Assembly (NCBI RefSeq): GCF_036323495.1
Contig: NZ_AP028947.1
Span: forward strand, 744,001 to 808,000
Origin: Limnobacter thiooxidans
GTDB lineage: Bacteria > Pseudomonadota > Gammaproteobacteria > Burkholderiales > Burkholderiaceae_B
DNA: 64,000 nucleotides
Direction: 5' to 3'
Part shown: positions 9,212 to 54,467 of the stretch, one piece after another
Layout of the letters: each line of letters opens with the position of its first letter
Numbering within the stretch: the first letter of the stretch is position 1
Notes under the pieces: model-generated
Told to the model about the DNA's origin: nothing
What the model saw: only the letters and a program-made list of their open reading frames with translations
The model's database searches: none
Program-made: the position numbers and the translations under genes

Positions 9212-10711
9212 GTGCACCTCAAGGTTTGCCGGTTTTATCCCCAATTTTCTTCCAGCTTGATGCCCGCAGTGTTGTTGCCTGCCGTGTTGTGTGTGGCTTC
9301 GTTGTTCTTCAGCCAAGCCGGATCGGCTACTGAGCTTGAACCCACCGTTAGAATTTTTCCCTCATCAGTCACCCAGGCATTTGTCAAGAAAGGCATAGCC
9401 AGTGCAGATTTCACCGCTTATGCCCTGCCTGTTGCACCGTATGCGCACCGCAAGCCGCAAGCTTACGCGCATGGTTCGAGTCGCCTCGTCAACCCGGCGT
9501 CTGTGGCCAAGGTGTTTACCACGGGCCTCGCCTTGCAAAGGCTGGAATCCACCTACCGCTTCAAAACGGGCTTTCACGCACAGGCAGAACCCGTCGATGG
9601 CGTGCTTAACGGCCCCTTGTACATCAAGGGCAGCGGAGATCCGGCCTTTCAGACTGCTGATTTGTGGATTTCCTTGCGTCAATTGAGAAGCATGGGAGTC
9701 GATGTGATCAACGGCCCTGTGGTTTTTGACGACTCGGCCTTCGCCGAGCAGGTGCCCAGTCTGGGATTGGCCGAAGAAGATTCTTTTGATGATGCACCTC
9801 ACCGGGCCTATCATGCCCAGCCCGATGCGCTGTTGCTCAACTATGGTGCGATGTCTATTGATCTGAAGATCAATGAAAATACAGTGATTGTGGTGCCTGA
9901 AGAAGCACCGAAGGACTGGGCTTTTGTTTCCGACATTGTTTTGACTCAAGGCGCTTGTGGTGCATGGAAAAACGGCATGAGCGTGGAATTTACCCGCGCC
10001 AAGCAGAACGTGATTGTGACTGTAAAGGGTAATTACCCCCGTCGTTGTGGTCTTTCCCGCTTGCCCATACGAATTCCTCCCCAAGACTGGCTCTGGGAGT
10101 CCTGGGTGAAAGAAATCTGGCTTCAGTTGGGTGGGAAATTTGCCGGGCCGCAAGGCGGGCAGGTGATTAAAGGTATTTCCCCAACCAACACGATTGCTTT
10201 GTACACCCACTTTGGAAAACCCCTCAGCGAGTTGATTCGGCAAATCAACAAATGGTCGAGCAATGTGATGGCGAGGCACCTTGAGCTGGCGGTGGCGGGT
10301 ACCCCGGAGGCATTCAACCGGCAAATGCTGGACTGGTTGAAATCACAGGGTATTGGGGTGAATGACTGGTTCTTCGAAAATGGGTCTGGTTTATCCCGCA
10401 CCACCCGCATCGACGCCAAGGGCTTGGCTGAGTTCCTGGCCAACATGGCAAACCGGGCAGACTTCCCCGATTTCCTTGCCAGTTTTCCGCGTGCTGGTGC
10501 CGACGGCACACTGCAGCGTCGGGTGGGTGGGGTGGAAGGTTTTGCCTATCTGAAAACCGGAAGTTTGAATGGGGTTCGTTCCTTGGGTGGCTACCTTCGC
10601 GACACGCAGGGCCAATTGTGGGCGGTGGGGGTTTTGGTGGAAAGCCCAAAGGCCAACGAAAGTTGGCCGCCCATGGAAAGTCTGCTTGAGTTTTTGTACA
10701 GACCGGAGTGA
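9212..10711 (+). CDS. dacB: D-alanyl-D-alanine carboxypeptidase/endopeptidase, PBP4 (S13) family
   Basis: A periplasmic low-molecular-weight penicillin-binding protein that cleaves D-Ala-D-Ala and peptide cross-links in peptidoglycan. The three active-site motifs are present: SVAK (Ser97, Lys100) in NPASVAKVFTT, SSN in KWSSNVMARH, and KTG in YLKTGSLNGV. The long insert between motifs one and two (KGSGDPAFQTADLW..., VVFDDSAF) is typical of family S13. A signal peptide precedes GSATELEP. The GTG at 9212 has CAGGA about 10 bp upstream; the ATG at 9260 has none. It precedes the small envelope genes at 10815-11946. Confidence 0.9.
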   Translation: MHLKVCRFYPQFSSSLMPAVLLPAVLCVASLFFSQAGSATELEPTVRIFPSSVTQAFVKKGIASADFTAYALPVAPYAHRKPQAYAHGSSRLVNPASVAKVFTTGLALQRLESTYRFKTGFHAQAEPVDGVLNGPLYIKGSGDPAFQTADLWISLRQLRSMGVDVINGPVVFDDSAFAEQVPSLGLAEEDSFDDAPHRAYHAQPDALLLNYGAMSIDLKINENTVIVVPEEAPKDWAFVSDIVLTQGACGAWKNGMSVEFTRAKQNVIVTVKGNYPRRCGLSRLPIRIPPQDWLWESWVKEIWLQLGGKFAGPQGGQVIKGISPTNTIALYTHFGKPLSELIRQINKWSSNVMARHLELAVAGTPEAFNRQMLDWLKSQGIGVNDWFFENGSGLSRTTRIDAKGLAEFLANMANRADFPDFLASFPRAGADGTLQRRVGGVEGFAYLKTGSLNGVRSLGGYLRDTQGQLWAVGVLVESPKANESWPPMESLLEFLYRPE

Positions 10712-10814
10712 ATCGGGTTAAAAAAACAGGTCTTGCCTGCAAGCCTTGTGCAAGCAAGGTTTTCCTTTGTTAGACTGATTTATTGATGCCAATAACCTGA
10801 ACGGAGCTAAGAAT

Positions 10815-11114
10815 ATGGACAACAACAAAGACAAGCTGTTTAGCGACATGAAAATCGTATTGAGTGACGCGGAAGATTTGTTGAAAGCTGCTGCTTCATC
10901 GTCAGGGGAGCGCGCTGTAGAGCTGCGTGAAAAAGCGCTGATCAGTTTGCGTCGTGCCAAGGAAGTCATGCAGGACGCCCAATCCGCCGTGCTCGAAAAA
11001 GGCAAGGCAGCCGCTCGCGCCACTGACGATTATGTTCATGATCATCCCTGGAAAGCTGTGGGCATTGCCGCAGCCGTCGGTTTTGTGTTGGGCTTGATCA
11101 TCAACCGTCGATAA
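10815..11114 (+). CDS. DUF883 (YqjD/ElaB-like) membrane-anchored protein
   Basis: A 99-residue protein: a long charged helix (residues 1-70) with coiled-coil character, then HPWKAVGIAAAVGFVLGLIINRR, a C-terminal membrane anchor with glycine spacing typical of DUF883. In E. coli, YqjD/ElaB/YgaM bind ribosomes in stationary phase and fix them at the inner membrane. Here the gene begins a trio with a YqjE-like and a YqjK-like gene. The ribosome site GGAGC lies before the ATG at 10815. Confidence 0.88.
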   Translation: MDNNKDKLFSDMKIVLSDAEDLLKAAASSSGERAVELREKALISLRRAKEVMQDAQSAVLEKGKAAARATDDYVHDHPWKAVGIAAAVGFVLGLIINRR

Positions 11115-11125
11115 CAAGGCGCAAG

Positions 11126-11539: not shown

Positions 11540-11946
11540 GCAAAAAGTTTGATGCCCTGGAGGCTCGCAAAGAACTCCTGATGATGAAAGCCGAACTTGA
11601 ACGCATGGAATTTGGCGGGCAGGTTGATGCGCTCAGGAAAGAGTTCGCCTGGATCAATACATTCAAACAGCTTGCCAACTGGATTGGGCGTTTCAATTCC
11701 CGTGCATTGTCACCCGTGGCCAGCTTGGGCGGGCCAGTCTGGCAGGAGCGTTTGAGAAGACATCCATTGTTGGGTATGTTGGCTTCAACAGCTTTGCTAC
11801 GGTTCAGCAAGCCACTTTCAAAATTGGCCATGCGGGCGGGTGTGGGTGCAGCTGTTTTGGCGGCAGGGGTATTCTGGTTTCAAACGAAAAGCCCTTGGGC
11901 TTCCCGTTCGCAAATCAGACACTCTACCGACCACTTTTCCGACTAA
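11536..11946 (+). CDS. YqjK-like small membrane protein
   Basis: A 136-residue protein. Residues 1-35 form a charged helix (ARKELLMMKAELERMEF), the middle is basic, and about residues 98-117 (RAGVGAAVLAAGVFWF) form one C-terminal membrane segment. It shares an ATGA overlap with the preceding gene. It matches the third gene of the yqjDEK arrangement by position and type rather than by strong motifs. The stop lies 15 bp from the convergent ubiD stop. Confidence 0.6.
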   Translation: MSKKFDALEARKELLMMKAELERMEFGGQVDALRKEFAWINTFKQLANWIGRFNSRALSPVASLGGPVWQERLRRHPLLGMLASTALLRFSKPLSKLAMRAGVGAAVLAAGVFWFQTKSPWASRSQIRHSTDHFSD

Positions 11947-11961
11947 AGTTCAGCCTCCAAG

Positions 11962-39814: not shown

Positions 39815-41371
39815 ATGATGCAGAACATTCTTTCAATGTCCGCTGACAAGCTGGAATTGCCGCTGAATCAGGCAAAAAAGGTTTTTGTGTGCACCGTGCT
39901 GGTGACTGCGGTCATCAAACTGTGGCTGGCGTGGTTTTTTCCAATGACCGGGGATGAAGCGTTTTTCCACCTGTGGTCGACGGATCTGAATTGGGGGTAT
40001 TACGACCACCCCCCCATGATCGGCTGGTGGCTCTGGGCGCTTGGTCACCTTGGTGATTCGCCAATTGTTGTTCGCAGTCTGACCCTGTTGTTGACCACCG
40101 TCATTGCCCTGGGCATTGTGTTCCTTGCCCGCGACCTGCTGTCCAAGGAACACGAGGCCCGCGCCTGGCTTGCGGGTGCAGTGTATCTCTCGATGCCCGT
40201 GTCGTGGTTTGCTGTGTTTGTTACCACCGACACGCCACTGATTTTCTTCATGGGTTTGGCCATTTTTACCTATACCCGTGCGATTCGGGCTGAATCGGGA
40301 ACTGGCATATTTCTCGCTGGGTGCTTTTTGGGGCTGGCTTTCCTGTCCAAGTATTTTGCGGTGCTGTTGGGCTTTGCCTTTGGTTTTCACTTGCTGTTTC
40401 ACAAGCAACGTTTCAAGTACCTGTTCCTGTTGTTGGCGGGGGTCATGCCTTTTGCCAGTATCAACATTGGATACAACCTGCACAACTGCTGGAACAACAT
40501 CATGTTCAATCTGATCAACCGGCACGAAGACGCCCGGCTGGGTTGGGGGACAGTACTGACCTATCTGGGGATGATGGTCTACTTGATTACTCCATGGGCG
40601 TTGTGGCGTTTGATCAAGGGCGCCCGTATCTGGGGCCGGGAAGGTGCATTGGCTTTTGCACTGTTGGTGCCGCTGACGTTGTTCTTGCTGGTGTCACTTG
40701 AAAAAACAGTGGGCCTGCATTGGGTGCTGGGTTTTTTGCCAGTCGCTTTTGTGTTGCTCGCTTTGTGTACCCCAGGTGCCTGGCTAAAGCGGTTTGTGGG
40801 TTTCAACGCGGTGCTGTCGGTGCCACATCTTGTGGTGTTTGGTTTGCTGATGCATGCAGGCGTGTCTGTATGGCCCAAGAAAGACTTTCAGGAAGATGTC
40901 TTGTTTCACCGGGAAATGCCCGCAATTCTTGCCGAGTTGACGCGCGACATGCCCAGCGACGGCGTGTTGACCACAGTGGCTTATTCCCCTGCTGCCCTGA
41001 TGACCTACCACTATGGTCAGGTGGTACCCGTGTTTGGGCCCGGCAAGTACCACGCCCGAAATGACGACACCTTCGTGGACTGGCGGCAAATGGATGGGAA
41101 ATCGATCCGGATTGTGGCCAAGGCCAAGCCAATAGACCCTGGTTTGTATTCTGCGTATCTGAGCAACACACGTGTGAGCAATGTGGTGGTGCAAGGGGTA
41201 CCCTTTACCATCGTGGATGGCAGTGACTTCAATTACCAGCGATTCCGGGATGTGGTGTTGCGGGAAGCTGTGGACAAGTACTACCAGATCCCAACGATAT
41301 TGCCGGTGCTGGACTGTCCGTTTGCGCGAAAGTACGGGTTTGAGGCGGAATGCCGAATTGCGAAGCCTTGA
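39815..41371 (+). CDS. GT39/ArnT-like polyprenyl-phosphate sugar transferase
   Basis: A 518-residue GT-C membrane protein with about ten helices. The N-terminal catalytic loop FPMTGDEAFFHLWSTDLNWGYYDHPPMIGWW carries the acidic residue and DHPP motif of family 39 (PMT/ArnT). A periplasmic C-terminal domain of about 150 residues follows. It moves a sugar from a polyprenyl phosphate carrier to a periplasmic acceptor. The ATG at 39815 lies 11 bp after the UbiA fusion, which may make its lipid-linked donor (inference). The acceptor is unknown. Confidence 0.85.
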   Translation: MMQNILSMSADKLELPLNQAKKVFVCTVLVTAVIKLWLAWFFPMTGDEAFFHLWSTDLNWGYYDHPPMIGWWLWALGHLGDSPIVVRSLTLLLTTVIALGIVFLARDLLSKEHEARAWLAGAVYLSMPVSWFAVFVTTDTPLIFFMGLAIFTYTRAIRAESGTGIFLAGCFLGLAFLSKYFAVLLGFAFGFHLLFHKQRFKYLFLLLAGVMPFASINIGYNLHNCWNNIMFNLINRHEDARLGWGTVLTYLGMMVYLITPWALWRLIKGARIWGREGALAFALLVPLTLFLLVSLEKTVGLHWVLGFLPVAFVLLALCTPGAWLKRFVGFNAVLSVPHLVVFGLLMHAGVSVWPKKDFQEDVLFHREMPAILAELTRDMPSDGVLTTVAYSPAALMTYHYGQVVPVFGPGKYHARNDDTFVDWRQMDGKSIRIVAKAKPIDPGLYSAYLSNTRVSNVVVQGVPFTIVDGSDFNYQRFRDVVLREAVDKYYQIPTILPVLDCPFARKYGFEAECRIAKP

Positions 41372-41397
41372 AAGGTTTTGTTGCGCAGGCTTTGCTC

Positions 41398-41579
41398 AGT
41401 GTTCGTTTGTTGCTCATCTCGCCTTGGACAAGGCTGATTTCCCGTCTTCATGATTCTGGCTTGGGGAATGCGAAACGCAAAAGCGTCTTCGCATCGATTG
41501 CTAGCGCAATCGCCCCGCGCTGCGAATCAGCCGGGAAGCCTTGCCCTGAATCGGCAAGATGATGCAGCAAACGAACACT
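41398..41579. repeat. Branched palindromic element E1
   Basis: A 182-bp imperfect palindrome in the convergent gap. Pairs from outside in: AGTGTTCGTTTG (41398-41409) with CAAACGAACACT (41568-41579); CATCT with AGATG; AAGGCT with AGCCTT; TTCCCG with CGGGAA; TGATTC with GAATCA; GGGG with CCCC (41463-41466 / 41513-41516). At the apex are two hairpins: one at 41470-41492 (arms GCGAAACGC, loop AAAA, one bulge) and CGATTGC-TAGC-GCAATCG at 41495-41512. No protein is encoded. Confidence 0.75.
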
Positions 41580-41591
41580 TCCCCTAGGCTG

Positions 41592-41695
41592 CGAACTTTC
41601 GCCGGTTAATGGGCTGGTGATCCAATGAAAGCCGCAATCCGCGCTAAGCGAGTCGCGGGCGTAGCCCCTTCACGTTTGCGAAGGCAGTATTGCCC
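41592..41695. repeat. Possible weaker palindromic element between E1 and E2
   Basis: CTGC, TTCGC and GGGCT on the left can pair in order with AGCCC, GCGAA and GCAG on the right, enclosing CCGCG-N10-CGCGG (41639-41658). The pairing is patchy. It may be a decayed member of the same family or chance. Confidence 0.35.
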
Positions 41696-41700
41696 TCGCA

Positions 41701-41839
41701 CCGCCATTCAGAAAGCCTGCCTTTTTTGAATTCACACGCGACGTTCGGCTGCAAGCCGACACTGGGTTCGGCCGTGTGTTTTGCCGAACCCGGTGAGTGA
41801 GTGTGAACTTCAAATAAGGGAAATACAGGCTTTCGGCGG
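41701..41839 (+). repeat. Branched palindromic element E2
   Basis: Outer pairs: CCGCC/GGCGG, GAAAGCCTG (41711-41719)/CAGGCTTTC (41826-41834), and TTTGAATTCACAC with GTGTGAAC-TTCAAA (one bulge). Inside are two hairpins: TCGGCT-GCA-AGCCGA (41745-41759) and GGGTTCGGC-N10-GCCGAACCC (41764-41791; loop CGTGTGTTTT). Positions 41731-41761 match element E3, reversed, at 29 of 31 bases. The orientation sign follows the E2 strand. Confidence 0.85.
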
Positions 41840-41851
41840 AAGAGGGTATGA

Positions 41852-41978
41852 GCCTTTGCAATCGATAGAAAACGTGTGCGCCTTGCAAACGATAGAAAAG
41901 GCATGCGCCTTGCGAACGAACGAAAGGGCATGCGCCAGAGCAGACGAGCAAAAAAGTGCGCCAGCACAGACGGGTCGC
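41852..41978 (+). repeat. Degenerate 27-bp tandem repeats
   Basis: Four full units and one partial unit start at 41852, 41880, 41907, 41934 and 41960, with lengths 28, 27, 27, 26 and 19. Each begins GCC and ends (T)GC, with a purine-rich middle (CGATAGAAAA-like). Units two and three are the most alike. The array touches the stop codon of the next gene. There are no spacers, so it is not a CRISPR array. Confidence 0.75.
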
Positions 41979-41979
41979 T

Positions 41980-42948
41980 TTAAGGTTTCGGCTCTTCGAT
42001 CCGCTGCCACTTCAATTCCCCTTCCAGCAAACTGGTTTTGTCACTACCCTTCAGTTTGACTGGCACGGCCCACTCCCCAGTTTGACTGGCCTTTTTCGGC
42101 TTGGCATCCAGTCTGGGCTCTGCATAGGTGATAGTGCCTGTTTCAGATACTTTTACCCAACCTGAGTCGGCTACCGGTGTATAAAAAAGCTCGGTCTGCT
42201 TGGCCCAAGGGTGCTTGCTGTCCAGCCACACTCCATCTTCACGAAGCTCCAGAAAAGGTTGACCTTTGGTGTCGAGAACCTGAAAGTCACCTTCAGCCGT
42301 GGCCAGTCGGCTCAGCATGAACATGTTACCGCTCAGCCCGGGGACCATGGCGTTCAGCCCTTCCGGTATGTTTTCCGTGCGCAGGTTTGGGCGCCAATAA
42401 CCTGTCATTGGCGTGGGCTCTCGCCGCTCAATTCGAACATTCAACGGTTTGCCGTTGACGCGGAGGCCCAGATTGAAGTGCGCCATTTCTTCATTCAGCA
42501 ATCGCGGGTCATACCAACCATAGCCGGGCTGCTGATCCAGCAGCACCCAGTTGGGTTTGGGCGCTGGTTTTGTCTTGAGTCGGTCGGGAACAGGTCCACC
42601 ACCGGGTTGGCGGGATCGATGCCAGCCTGTTGCGTTAAGGTCAGCAAATAACTTGTTGCCATCGAATCGAAGAAACGCGCGTTTGTCCTCGCCGAGAATC
42701 TCAATTTTCTGCTGGCCGTCTGTTGACATTGCAAATTGGTAGGCAGTGCTTTTAACAACCTGAAGCGAAACTCCTGCGGGTAGTTTGGCCTTGAGGCTAA
42801 CTGCTGGAATTCCCCCTTCGTCGCCATGTTCAGCATGGGCGAGCGCGGGTTCGCTGTAGAAAGGAGCGTAAATTGTGAGGGCTGAGAAGAAAAACGCCAG
42901 GCCGAGGCCTAGCGTTTTCTTCACCCAGTTCGCTTTAACGATGGGCAT
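41980..42948 (-). CDS. Exported protein of unknown function, partner of the copper-radical oxidase
   Basis: A 322-residue protein with a clear signal peptide (LGLGLAFFFSALTIYAPF...ALA) leaving a mature start near HAEHGDEGG, which is rich in His and acidic residues. The body has GWHRSRQPGGGPVPDR, WVLLDQQPGYGWYDPRL, RIERREPTPMTGYWRP and a repeated beta-rich end (DGVWLDSKHPW). I do not recognise the family. It is 18 bp downstream of the oxidase gene and almost surely in its operon, so a role in copper loading, folding or electron transfer for the oxidase is possible (inference). Confidence 0.7.
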   Translation of the reverse strand: MPIVKANWVKKTLGLGLAFFFSALTIYAPFYSEPALAHAEHGDEGGIPAVSLKAKLPAGVSLQVVKSTAYQFAMSTDGQQKIEILGEDKRAFLRFDGNKLFADLNATGWHRSRQPGGGPVPDRLKTKPAPKPNWVLLDQQPGYGWYDPRLLNEEMAHFNLGLRVNGKPLNVRIERREPTPMTGYWRPNLRTENIPEGLNAMVPGLSGNMFMLSRLATAEGDFQVLDTKGQPFLELREDGVWLDSKHPWAKQTELFYTPVADSGWVKVSETGTITYAEPRLDAKPKKASQTGEWAVPVKLKGSDKTSLLEGELKWQRIEEPKP

Positions 42949-52214: not shown

Positions 52215-53711
52215 ATGGCAAAAAATATCCCTTTGCTGGATGCATCCTGGTTGTATGTTGAGTCCAAAGAAGCGCCCATGCATGTGGGCAGCATGGCGAT
52301 TTTCACAGTGCCTGAGGGCGAAACATCCCAGCAGGCCATTGCACGAATTGTTCAAATGCTGCGTGCCTCCGTGGAGTTCGCGCCCCCCTTCAACTATCGC
52401 TTGTCCAGTCCTCGCTTGTTGACTTTGATGCCCAAGTGGATTGAGGCTGACAAGATTGACCTGGATTACCATTTCCGTCACAGCGCCTTGCCAGCACCCG
52501 GCGGAGAGCGCGAGTTGGGTACCTTGATTTCGCGTTTGCACTCTCACCCACTGGACTTCCGCAAACCGCTGTGGGAAATGCACCTGATTGAAGGGTTGTA
52601 TGGCAACCGATTCGCGCTGTACACCAAGATGCACCATTCGCTAATGGATGGTGTGGGCGGTATGCGTCTGATGGAACGAATTTTTGGCAAGTCGGCCAAG
52701 GAAAGCATGGGCTTGCCAGCGCCTTGGTCTGTAGGCACAGTCAGCCGCAAGAAAAAGAGCACCGAGCCGCAACATTTTGCGGACCAGGCCCGTGAGGCCT
52801 GGGAGGCTGCCAAGCTGAGCGGTCAGTCCCTGCCTGCAGCGGGGCGCGCGCTGATGGATTTGGTGCGTGAGGCTGTCAAGCCGACCGACCCGGCCCTGGC
52901 GACTCCGTTCTCAGGCCCCCGTTCGATTGTGAACAGAAGGGTGGGGGGCGCGCGTCGCCTGGCTACCCAGACCTATCCGCTGGAGCGCGTTCGCGCTGTG
53001 GCAGATGCGGCGAAGGTCAGTGTGAATGATATTTTTCTGGCAATTTGCTCTAGTTCAATTCGCCGTTATCTGCTGGAACGGGACGCGCTGCCTGCGGAAT
53101 CGCTGACGGCTGGTTTGCCTGTGTCTGTTCGCCCGGCAGATGACCTGGACGGCGGCAATGCCATCAGTTTCATCATTGCCAACCTGTACACCACCGAGAG
53201 CGATCCCTTGGTGCGGTTGAATGAAATTCACCGTTCCACGCAATTGGCCAAGACCAATTTGCAGGCCATGCCCAAAGAGGCCATCAACAACTACACCATC
53301 ATGCTGATGGCACCGATGATGTTGCAACTGGTTTCAGGGCTGGGTGGTTTGACCCGGCCAATTTTCAACACAGTGATTTCAAACGTGCCTGGCCCGTCCC
53401 AGGACTTGTATTTCTCCGGTTGCAGGTTGGAACAGTTCTACCCGATTTCGCTGATTCCGCATGGGCAGGCTTTGAATATCACTGTGGTGAGTTATTCCGG
53501 GCAGTTCAACGTGGCGTTTACGGGTGACCACGATGCATTGCCATCCATGCAGCGTTTGTCTGTTTACACCGGTGAAGCGCTTGAGGAACTGGAATCGGTG
53601 CTTGGGGTGAAGTGGGAAAGCAAGACTGCCGAGCCCACGGCTGCACCAGTTGCGGCCAAGCCTGCAGCGCGCAAGACTGCAACCCGCAAGACTGCAACCC
53701 GCAAGGCTTGA
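52215..53711 (+). CDS. Wax ester synthase/diacylglycerol acyltransferase (WS/DGAT)
   Basis: A 498-residue enzyme of the WS/DGAT family that joins fatty acyl-CoA with alcohols or diacylglycerol to make storage lipid. The catalytic motif is HHSLMDG (H140, H141, D145). Other blocks are PLLDASWLYVESKEAPMHVG at the start, SRLHSHPLDFRKPLWEMHLIEGL, and NTVISNVPGPSQDLYFSG near the end. The last 20 residues are a basic repeat (ARKTATRKTATRKA). The ATG at 52215 with GGAG upstream is chosen over an in-frame ATG at 52167. Confidence 0.93.
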   Translation: MAKNIPLLDASWLYVESKEAPMHVGSMAIFTVPEGETSQQAIARIVQMLRASVEFAPPFNYRLSSPRLLTLMPKWIEADKIDLDYHFRHSALPAPGGERELGTLISRLHSHPLDFRKPLWEMHLIEGLYGNRFALYTKMHHSLMDGVGGMRLMERIFGKSAKESMGLPAPWSVGTVSRKKKSTEPQHFADQAREAWEAAKLSGQSLPAAGRALMDLVREAVKPTDPALATPFSGPRSIVNRRVGGARRLATQTYPLERVRAVADAAKVSVNDIFLAICSSSIRRYLLERDALPAESLTAGLPVSVRPADDLDGGNAISFIIANLYTTESDPLVRLNEIHRSTQLAKTNLQAMPKEAINNYTIMLMAPMMLQLVSGLGGLTRPIFNTVISNVPGPSQDLYFSGCRLEQFYPISLIPHGQALNITVVSYSGQFNVAFTGDHDALPSMQRLSVYTGEALEELESVLGVKWESKTAEPTAAPVAAKPAARKTATRKTATRKA

Positions 53712-53769
53712 GTCGACTAACGCCGGGTGGTTTTTTGGGCCCACACGGCTTAAAGCCCACTCAGCGCGA

Positions 53770-53932
53770 ACTCCAATCGCTCGCCTGAAAACCTGGTTTT
53801 CCCTTTTTGAAATTCATATTGACTCAACACACTCGACAAAAGAGATGGTCGAGTGTGTTGTCGGCTTGCAGCCGAACGTTGCATGTGAACTTCAAACGGG
53901 CAGGTTTTCTTGAATGGCGAAGCGATTGGAGT
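53770..53932 (-). repeat. Branched palindromic element E3 (copy of E2, inverted)
   Basis: Ends: ACTCCAATCGC (53770-53780)/GCGATTGGAGT (53922-53932), CGCC/GGCG, GAAAACCTG (53787-53795)/CAGGTTTTC (53901-53909), and TTTGAAATTCATAT with ATGTGAACTTCAAA (two mismatches). At the apex are AACACACTCGAC-N10-GTCGAGTGTGTT (53826-53859) and TCGGCT-TGC-AGCCGA (53861-53875). The block 53856-53886 is the reverse complement of E2 41731-41761 at 29 of 31 bases. Confidence 0.85.
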
Positions 53933-54162
53933 CTCGCTGCTGAGTGTGCGCTAAGGTGTCGGTAATTGATCGCACATGTGTGGGCAGCAACTGTGACGGG
54001 GTTGACACTGGCGGTGCGTTGGTCTGCGGGGTGATCGGGCTACATCAGCGCTCAGTTGGCCGTGCTCGTTGAAGAACCGGAGCTGGTGAGGTCTCCATAG
54101 GTGTGGCTTTGAACCCGCTGCCCGCAAGACCAGCCTGCCGGCTTGGCCTCCCCGGCAGTGCG

Positions 54163-54326
54163 CTTGCCTGTTCCGCAAATTCAGGAAAACCGCCCCTTTT
54201 TGACCCAGCCCATTGCGTGTGCCTGGAGGGCACCACAGAGTCCTCGGCCATCTTTTTTGCCGAGGCGCTGTGAGCAGTGGGTGTGTCAAAAAGGGATCAG
54301 CGGTTTTTCGTGCGGGATCGGGCAAG
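54163..54326. repeat. Branched palindromic element E4
   Basis: Paired arms: CTTGCC (54163-54168)/GGCAAG (54321-54326), TTCCGCA/TGCGGGA, AAAACCGC (54186-54193)/GCGGTTTT (54300-54307), CCTTTTTGAC (54195-54204)/GTCAAAAAGG (54285-54294), and CCCATTGC/GCAGTGGG. At the apex are GTGCC-TGGAG-GGCAC (54219-54233) and CCTCGGC-N10-GCCGAGG (54242-54265; loop CATCTTTTTT). The sequence differs from E2/E3, but the architecture is the same. Confidence 0.75.
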
Positions 54327-54327
54327 G

Positions 54328-54394
54328 CACGCTGGGTAGGCCCAAACAGAGGCCAGGTTCAACTCGCGCAACGAGTAAGCCACGCCGGGTAGGC
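54328..54394 (+). repeat. Direct repeat pair beside E4
   Basis: CACGCTGGGTAGGC (54328-54341) recurs as CACGCCGGGTAGGC (54381-54394), 13 of 14 identical, starting 53 bp apart. The stretch 54395-54467 up to ruvB shows nothing else recognisable, nor does 53933-54162 apart from the hairpin CTGCCGG-N10-CCGGCAG at 54135-54158. Confidence 0.6.
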
Positions 54395-54467
54395 TTAAAA
54401 CCCTGCCGGTGTGGCAAACAACTCCGAATAGCCACACTACTCCTTGTAGGCAATTCAATGCGCCGCC

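Follow-up and report, generated by a model that had tools for sequence, protein, structure and literature searches.

A paired, structurally constrained family of large branched palindromes in the genus Limnobacter

The E2 and E3 gaps

The window analysed here is a stretch of 64,000 nucleotides of the Limnobacter thiooxidans genome (contig NZ_AP028947.1, positions 744,001 to 808,000). Two of its convergent intergenic gaps hold large palindromic elements, designated E2 and E3 (Table 1). The E2 gap is bordered by a PMT_2-domain gene on one side and by a gene without a Pfam match on the other. The E3 gap separates a WS/DGAT gene from ruvB.

An earlier note, made from the letters of the window, presented E2 and E3 as two inverted copies of a branched palindrome. 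Direct reading of the sequence located hairpin 1, hairpin 2 and the outer stem of E2 where the note had placed them, and found in E3 the same hairpin 1, an outer stem in which pairing is kept, and a hairpin 2 with a 10-nt loop ending in TTTT. The two are indeed inverted copies (75% over about 143 bases by BLAST), but they are not a lone pair, as many further genome matches were obtained at E < 1e-9. The limits of the elements had been drawn too narrowly: the fold extends past them, and the E3 stem reaches about 53758-53946. In addition, a partner had been overlooked in each gap, where E2 and E3 face their own head-to-head element. Hairpin 2 of E2 is paired, yet hypervariable from copy to copy.

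Folded as single-stranded DNA, the E2 and E3 stretches gave z = -8.9 and z = -11.5, respectively, and in both cases 0 of 200 shuffles were equally stable. The complete E3 gap of 756 nt, folded as RNA, gave z = -13.5 against 20 shuffles. The folds of E2 and E3 are not due to chance. A further convergent gap of the window, 11540-11961, was considered as an element and rejected (z 0.21).

Table 1. Features of the E2 and E3 gaps, in positions of the window
Feature	Position	Strand	Basis
E2 unit: whole convergent gap, 608 bp; D-type (-) and E2 (+) head to head	41372..41979	.	gene calls; MFE -0.46/nt
Genes around the E2 gap	39815-41371; 41980-42948	+; -	own gene finder
D-type partner of E2: outer stem TGTTCGTTTG../..CAAACGAACA and two inner hairpins	41390..41585	-	fold, BLAST
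E2 core, A' type	41702..41838	+	model R1, 132.3 bits; folds
E2 outer stem: 5' arm GAAAGCCTG, 3' arm CAGGCTTTC	41711-41719; 41826-41834	+	sequence; helix 1
E2 hairpin 1: TCGGCT-GCA-AGCCGA	41745..41759	+	sequence; helix 5
E2 hairpin 2: arms GGGTTCGGC and GCCGAACCC, 10-nt T-rich loop CGTGTGTTTT	41764..41791; arms 41764-41772, 41783-41791	+	sequence; helix 6
E2 outer tail: arm motif GGCATGCGCCTTGCAAACGAA in imperfect tandem copies	41839..41936	+	sequence reading
E3 unit: whole convergent gap, WS/DGAT gene to ruvB	53712..54467	.	gene calls, PF03007, PF05496, fold
E3 core, A type	53782..53919	-	model R1, 154 bits; folds
E3 outer stem: GAAAACCTG/CAGGTTTTC		-	sequence reading
E3 hairpin 2	53826..53859; arms 53826-53837, 53848-53859	-	sequence reading
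E3 hairpin 1, identical to E2 hairpin 1	53861..53875	-	sequence reading
B-type partner of E3	54174..54314	+	model R1, 84.9 bits

Size and architecture of the family

BLAST returned at least 40 further matches in the genome for E2 and at least 39 for E3 (E < 1e-9). Of the 46 own-genome copies known at that stage, 42 went into a covariance model, R1. Its search of the L. thiooxidans genome (3,536,915 bp, 3.54 Mb) yielded at least 90 matches, at least 87 of them at E < 1e-5, the other three being the opposite strand of copies among the 87. Further copies are numerous; their absence was one of the outcomes that the earlier note had named as refuting its proposal.

A second kind of element, the D type, occupies 20 distinct places in the loci examined by fold and BLAST, every one head-to-head with an A'-type copy. 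Its plan, an outer stem with two inner hairpins, is that of the R1 types; 19 of the 20 entered the D alignment (A3). R1 misses the D partner of E2 in the window even at E <= 10, and one other D element was matched weakly (20 bits, E 0.019). A D partner accompanies 20 of the 21 E2-class copies; the exception, at 1019123, has another copy 0.6 kb away and points in the same direction as that copy. Three further partners were recovered from wider stretches. The R1 copies, the D elements and these three partners therefore amount to at least 110 elements at 57 intergenic sites. Head-to-head partners are present in 53 of the 57 units (30 detected by R1, 20 D elements and the three further ones), and none was found at 401505, 1019123, 1092262 and 1226415. 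Judged by eye, the two members of a pair usually differ in type.

The elements are non-coding, dispersed, intergenic palindromes of roughly 190-290 nt (by eye, from the folds), and the gaps that their head-to-head pairs fill are mostly 500-750 bp. Each has a core of 137 positions, beyond which the arms extend. A long outer stem, whose 3' arm has a bulge of about 4-5 nt, leads to a junction that carries a short hairpin and a hypervariable one. A bulge of 4-5 nt was recognized in 68 of the 87 copies by a pattern search to which 13 copies gave no match. The outer edges often bear tandem copies of the arm motif.

Several individual loci deserve mention. The outer tails of L079 and L071 are perfect or near-perfect tandem arrays of a roughly 25-bp arm motif beyond two A' elements. 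An A-type copy (L041:1443-1599) has a direct duplication of about 20 bases (TTTGAATTCACATGCAACG) inside its 5' arm, perhaps a frozen intermediate. Genome G015 contains two units about 8 kb apart (L232:2710-3104 and 10683-11117) whose + elements score equally under R1 (112 bits).

Distribution across genomes

Counting the own genome and one weak match in G003, BLAST detected the family in 12 of 16 genomes of the genus. R1 found none in G014, G008 and G009, the latter two being incomplete, one weak match in G002 (E 0.002) and three in G003, one of them at E 0.05. Four of 101 genomes matched in a family-level sample, all from one genus of 43, and two of 300 in an order-level sample, again from one genus of 134. 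No match outside the genus was obtained in these two samples under stricter filters; other sequence types of like shape would have escaped detection. As far as sampled, this paired and structurally constrained repeat family is restricted to the genus. The literature searches made brought up no account of this family.

Constraint on the fold

In the alignment of 42 copies, 95.5% of 1635 cells are paired; the figure for shuffles is 86.1%, and sliding the partner leaves no more than 44.7%. The fit is favoured by a consensus structure derived from the same 42 copies. Both sides have changed in 24 of 39 pairs, and the covariation score is 0.296 versus 0.120 (0 of 500 shuffles). By these figures the stems are not decaying at random; random decay was the other outcome that the earlier note had named as fatal to its proposal.

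Comparison with the close relative G013 shows how changes are distributed. In 24 same-site pairs, drawn from 40 same-site comparisons, 243 of 3885 paired positions differ (0.063) and 221 of 1296 unpaired ones (0.171), i.e., 2.7 times as often in the unpaired set, which includes ends and loops. The 192 one-sided changes comprise 36 from Watson-Crick to G.U, 39 from G.U to Watson-Crick, 112 from Watson-Crick to mismatch and 5 from G.U to mismatch. Both sides changed in 24 cases (15 to Watson-Crick, 2 to G.U and 7 to mismatch), where 7.6 are expected if the sides are independent. There is considerable tolerance of mismatch, because the 112 one-sided changes from Watson-Crick to mismatch are far above the 15 double changes to Watson-Crick.

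The mismatches also carry information about the strand. With G.U pairing off, single mismatches in the core are G.T and A.C in a ratio of 37:6 in the own genome and 21:6 in relatives, or 111:49 and 107:30 with flanks included, and the counts hardly change when the other strand is folded. When pair-states are counted once per group, and only for pairs predicted from both strands, 64 are G.T and 29 A.C (p = 0.0004 if independent, which these states are not fully), and the excess has the same direction in 5 of 5 groups. As evidence to the contrary, with G.U pairing allowed and the reverse strand folded, the ratio is reversed in the own copies (10:16 and 9:18) but not in relatives (38:32). Since G.T mismatches exceed A.C on one strand, the fold of that strand seems favoured. 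This strand reads outward from the spacer and is the antisense strand of the nearest gene. These data indicate that the fold of one strand is preferred, which would match either folded RNA or folded single-stranded DNA of that strand. Together with the lower frequency of differences at paired positions, the strand bias supports the suggestion that the kept pairing reflects either selection for a branched fold or a mechanism that works through it.

Pairing might also be kept by the mechanics of palindromes alone, with snap-back (self-templated) repair and slippage matching the arms and no selection on function. Such processes would account for the tandem arm repeats at the edges, for chimeric and internally deleted forms seen at the E3 site in relatives, and for the diversity of hairpin 2, for which a crude finder detected a perfect stem of at least 8 bp in 54 of the 87 copies, with 44 distinct sequences of the 5' stem strand. 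Self-templating should, however, erase the bulge that 68 copies retain in the 3' arm. The strand asymmetry of the mismatches and the many one-sided intermediates also speak against it, making this a clearly improbable explanation.

Genomic setting and transcription signals

Alternatively, the elements may act as RNA, in that they could provide the genes directed into the gap with 3' ends, with terminators that work in both directions or with structures that stabilise the mRNA. According to our gene finder, the 57 units are flanked by 36 convergent, 20 codirectional and 1 divergent gene pairs, and at least one gene points into the gap in 56 of them, as such a role would lead one to expect. An excess of G.T would be tolerated in an RNA fold, and short T-runs come after GC-rich stems. 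One promoter-like site was detected in the E2 gap (41425-41454, + strand, within the D element), where 0.1 are expected. Against a function as RNA, the nearest gene has the favoured strand as its antisense strand; in convergent pairs, the read-through transcript of the far gene would carry it. No promoter-like site was found in the E3 gap, and no outward promoter excess precedes the 87 cores (mean of a home-made score 4.50 outward, 4.51 inward and 4.60 shuffled). A terminator scan detected 0 against 1.2 expected in the E3 gap and 1 against 1.4 in the E2 gap; it was limited to loops of 3-8, and a giant branched stem therefore falls outside it. An ordinary terminator-like hairpin with a T-run was seen by eye just outside the D element in 6 of 19 A'+D units. 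Rfam gave no match to the elements; a tRNA is the only match of the window above gathering score, and the best one for 53700-54000 is at chance level (E 9.3). Overall, an RNA function appears possible but somewhat unlikely. Dedicated small RNAs from the spacer were rejected for want of an outward promoter excess, despite the single promoter-like site in the E2 gap.

Conserved sites and rewritten sequence

The sites of the units are mostly shared between species. In nine other genomes of the genus, 70 of the 74 best-scoring element loci have at least one flanking gene in common with a unit of the own genome and 63 have both, some of these loci lying at one site, above all in G005. For all 20 further loci of G013, which were picked for their resemblance to E3, the best match is an own site.

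The sequences at these sites behave differently from the sites. The closeness of orthologous copies was judged by rank among the 87 own copies, because best-paralog figures favour paralogs, of which more are compared. For 48 loci of G004, G015, G005 and G001, the orthologous own copy ranks first among the 87 only 4 times, and mean identities are 0.77-0.81; the 48 come from 60 loci, the rest being unmapped or second loci at the same site. For G013 the orthologous own copy ranks first 19 times out of 40, after one of 41 model matches, the reverse strand of a listed copy, had been dropped. Same-site identity falls below 0.80 in 7 of these 40, in one case for want of an own partner; at site 1226415 the own partner lies outside the compared set. 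Site 166929 exemplifies the replacement of a single element: the + element of G013 has 95% identity with a different own locus and 78% with its own site, and the partner of the replaced element remains orthologous (0.89, rank 1). Copies have thus overwritten one another at orthologous sites. Moreover, inner modules and outer arms occur in several combinations. Given these recombinations of arms and modules and the replacement of single elements, some of the apparent compensation amounts to the replacement of entire modules. The compensatory changes described in the earlier note hold as kept pairing, but in part they represent swaps of whole inner modules, and one-sided changes are frequent.

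The gene to the left of E3 was found in 13 relatives (named Limnobacter and MAG contigs) at 78-99% identity, and the adjoining site varies among them. A full pair is present in L021 and L027, an A-type element in L022 and in L025, whose contig ends there, and a B-type element only in L032. L028 holds a chimera of both members and L026 a deletion remnant. Short gaps of 48-65 bp occur in three of the 13 loci (L023, L024 and L030), two of which may retain tail remnants as judged by eye, and L029, L031 and L033 have no gap or other genes. In the chimera (L028:11634-11773, from the MAG of Limnobacter sp. CACIAM 66H1), the pair has collapsed so that an A arm lies on the left and a B arm on the right.

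New copies might instead enter the same gaps repeatedly, perhaps by insertion into older copies, without homologous conversion. The different sequence types that the same sites hold in different species would agree with such hot spots, as would the terminator-like hairpins adjoining 6 of the 19 A'+D units. Re-insertion is nevertheless very doubtful in view of single elements replaced beside a partner that is still orthologous, the shuffling of arms and inner modules, and a target duplication of the unit that was not seen. No site was observed that is cleanly empty of an entire unit and reveals a target duplication, and transposition of the units is therefore putative. The sites common to several species argue against much present mobility.

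Comparison with known systems

Integron attC sites fold in a strand-specific manner and have bulges and a variable tip; their attachment boxes are the complementary motifs RYYYAAC and GTTRRRY. The elements resemble them as folded, strand-asymmetric, bulged hairpins with a variable tip, and the own genome has an intact integron integrase. Its chromosomal integron (L281:4000-9912) contains this integrase, attC-like sites (GCCTAACG..CGTTAGGC) and small cassette genes. A search similar to that applied to the elements recovered the attC-like sites next to the integrase, but among the 87 copies a box pair occurs in 1 and complementary boxes in 0. Unlike attC, the elements also lie outside arrays and in genomes without an integrase over the cut-off, as is the case for 14 of the 16 genus genomes, including 9 of the 11 rich in elements (G002, G012 and G013 retain pieces). 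That the elements are attC sites or relatives of these is scarcely credible, and the candidate was rejected. IntI itself is listed among the proteins that act on folded single strands (PMC8266576).

Bacterial REPs and REPINs are portrayed in one account as intergenic, palindromic and present in many copies in a genome, with inverted doublets forming the unit and REPs measuring about 20-60 bp (PMC3116915). Another describes a bulged hairpin allowing strand-specific recognition, a GTAG motif and a TnpA_REP gene (PMC8266576). The elements are likewise inverted doublets, as the head-to-head arrangement of 53 of 57 units shows. In contrast to REPs, they are branched, their core and arms far exceed 20-60 bp, and the partner is of a different type. 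The family PF01797 (Y1_Tnp, RAYT) had 0 matches in the own genome, and 5 of 14 controls were matched. The elements are REPIN-like in arrangement, and outside the REPIN family by enzyme and size. Spread driven by a reverse transcriptase was also rejected: the family is unmatched in 11 of the 16 genus genomes, including the own genome, and 5 of 16 have one.

Small MITE-like repeats, e.g., ERIC/IRU, YPAL/RU-2, Correia/NEMIS, RUP and RPE, are characterized in a survey as dispersed, gene-less and palindromic or with inverted repeats, in units under 200 bp mostly with terminal repeats and target duplications; YPAL, of about 168 bp, contains inverted repeats, and its targets lie within or beside dyad symmetry (PMC2229807). 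The likeness lies in the non-coding, dispersed, palindromic and intergenic nature of the Limnobacter elements. These differ in forming head-to-head pairs that fill gaps of mostly 500-750 bp, and in having common sites with overwritten sequence as the rule.

Gene cassettes between elements

At three sites of the own genome, a gene pair lies between the two elements of a unit. These long-spaced units (L164:2348-3299, L163:1726-2888 and L043:314-1044) hold an amidase-type gene and a small partner, and an autonomous element with a transposase in the long spacers was rejected on this ground. The first cassette encodes a Peptidase_C92 protein (E 1.2e-7) and a 204-aa protein without a family, the second an NlpC/P60 protein (E 4e-16) and a 163-aa protein without a family, and the third a weak CHAP-like fragment (E 0.16) with a DUF3828 protein (E 7e-13). 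The pairs may resemble effector/immunity pairs.

Judged by element spacing, the first pair is absent in G013 and G004. The second is missing in G013, relative to which the own copy has a 1089-bp insert flanked by a 5-bp direct repeat, and by spacing also in G015 and G001; G004 keeps both genes and G011 at least the partner. At the third site, no gene was called in the gap of G001 and G004. Presence and absence could have arisen by insertion or by deletion. The cargo cases were kept at three because a further long-spaced example, in G005, consists of two separate gaps with an ordinary-looking gene of 417 aa between them, and a general cargo reading was rejected on the same evidence. It is a speculative and quite improbable extension that some 57 fixed, genus-wide chromosomal platforms, in each of which two unlike folded single-strand hairpins face one another, swap modules via a putative fold-reading enzyme and gain or lose cassettes of an amidase and a secreted partner between the hairpins.

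Origin and significance

The explanation tentatively preferred, with a likelihood approaching even, is a non-autonomous palindrome family that is REPIN-like but far larger, was spread by a putative factor, now occupies fixed sites and is homogenised by recombination under a strand-specific constraint on the fold. The spread of the pairs, by the route proposed for REPINs, would date to an ancestor of most of the genus and would have depended on a putative factor recognising the folded single strand of one orientation. They would since have remained at fixed 3'-intergenic sites, where recombination between copies may homogenise the elements by exchanging inner modules, and variants lacking the strand-specific fold would be lost.

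REP-type repeats are short and tied to a transposase, while in Limnobacter very large branched palindromes hold their position across species. Since each genome rewrites their sequence and preserves the fold, the concerted evolution of a structured repeat becomes directly measurable in bacteria. The survival of the fold raises the question of what reads it. If the cassette pattern is true, the pairs would also mark exchange points for pairs of amidase and partner genes.
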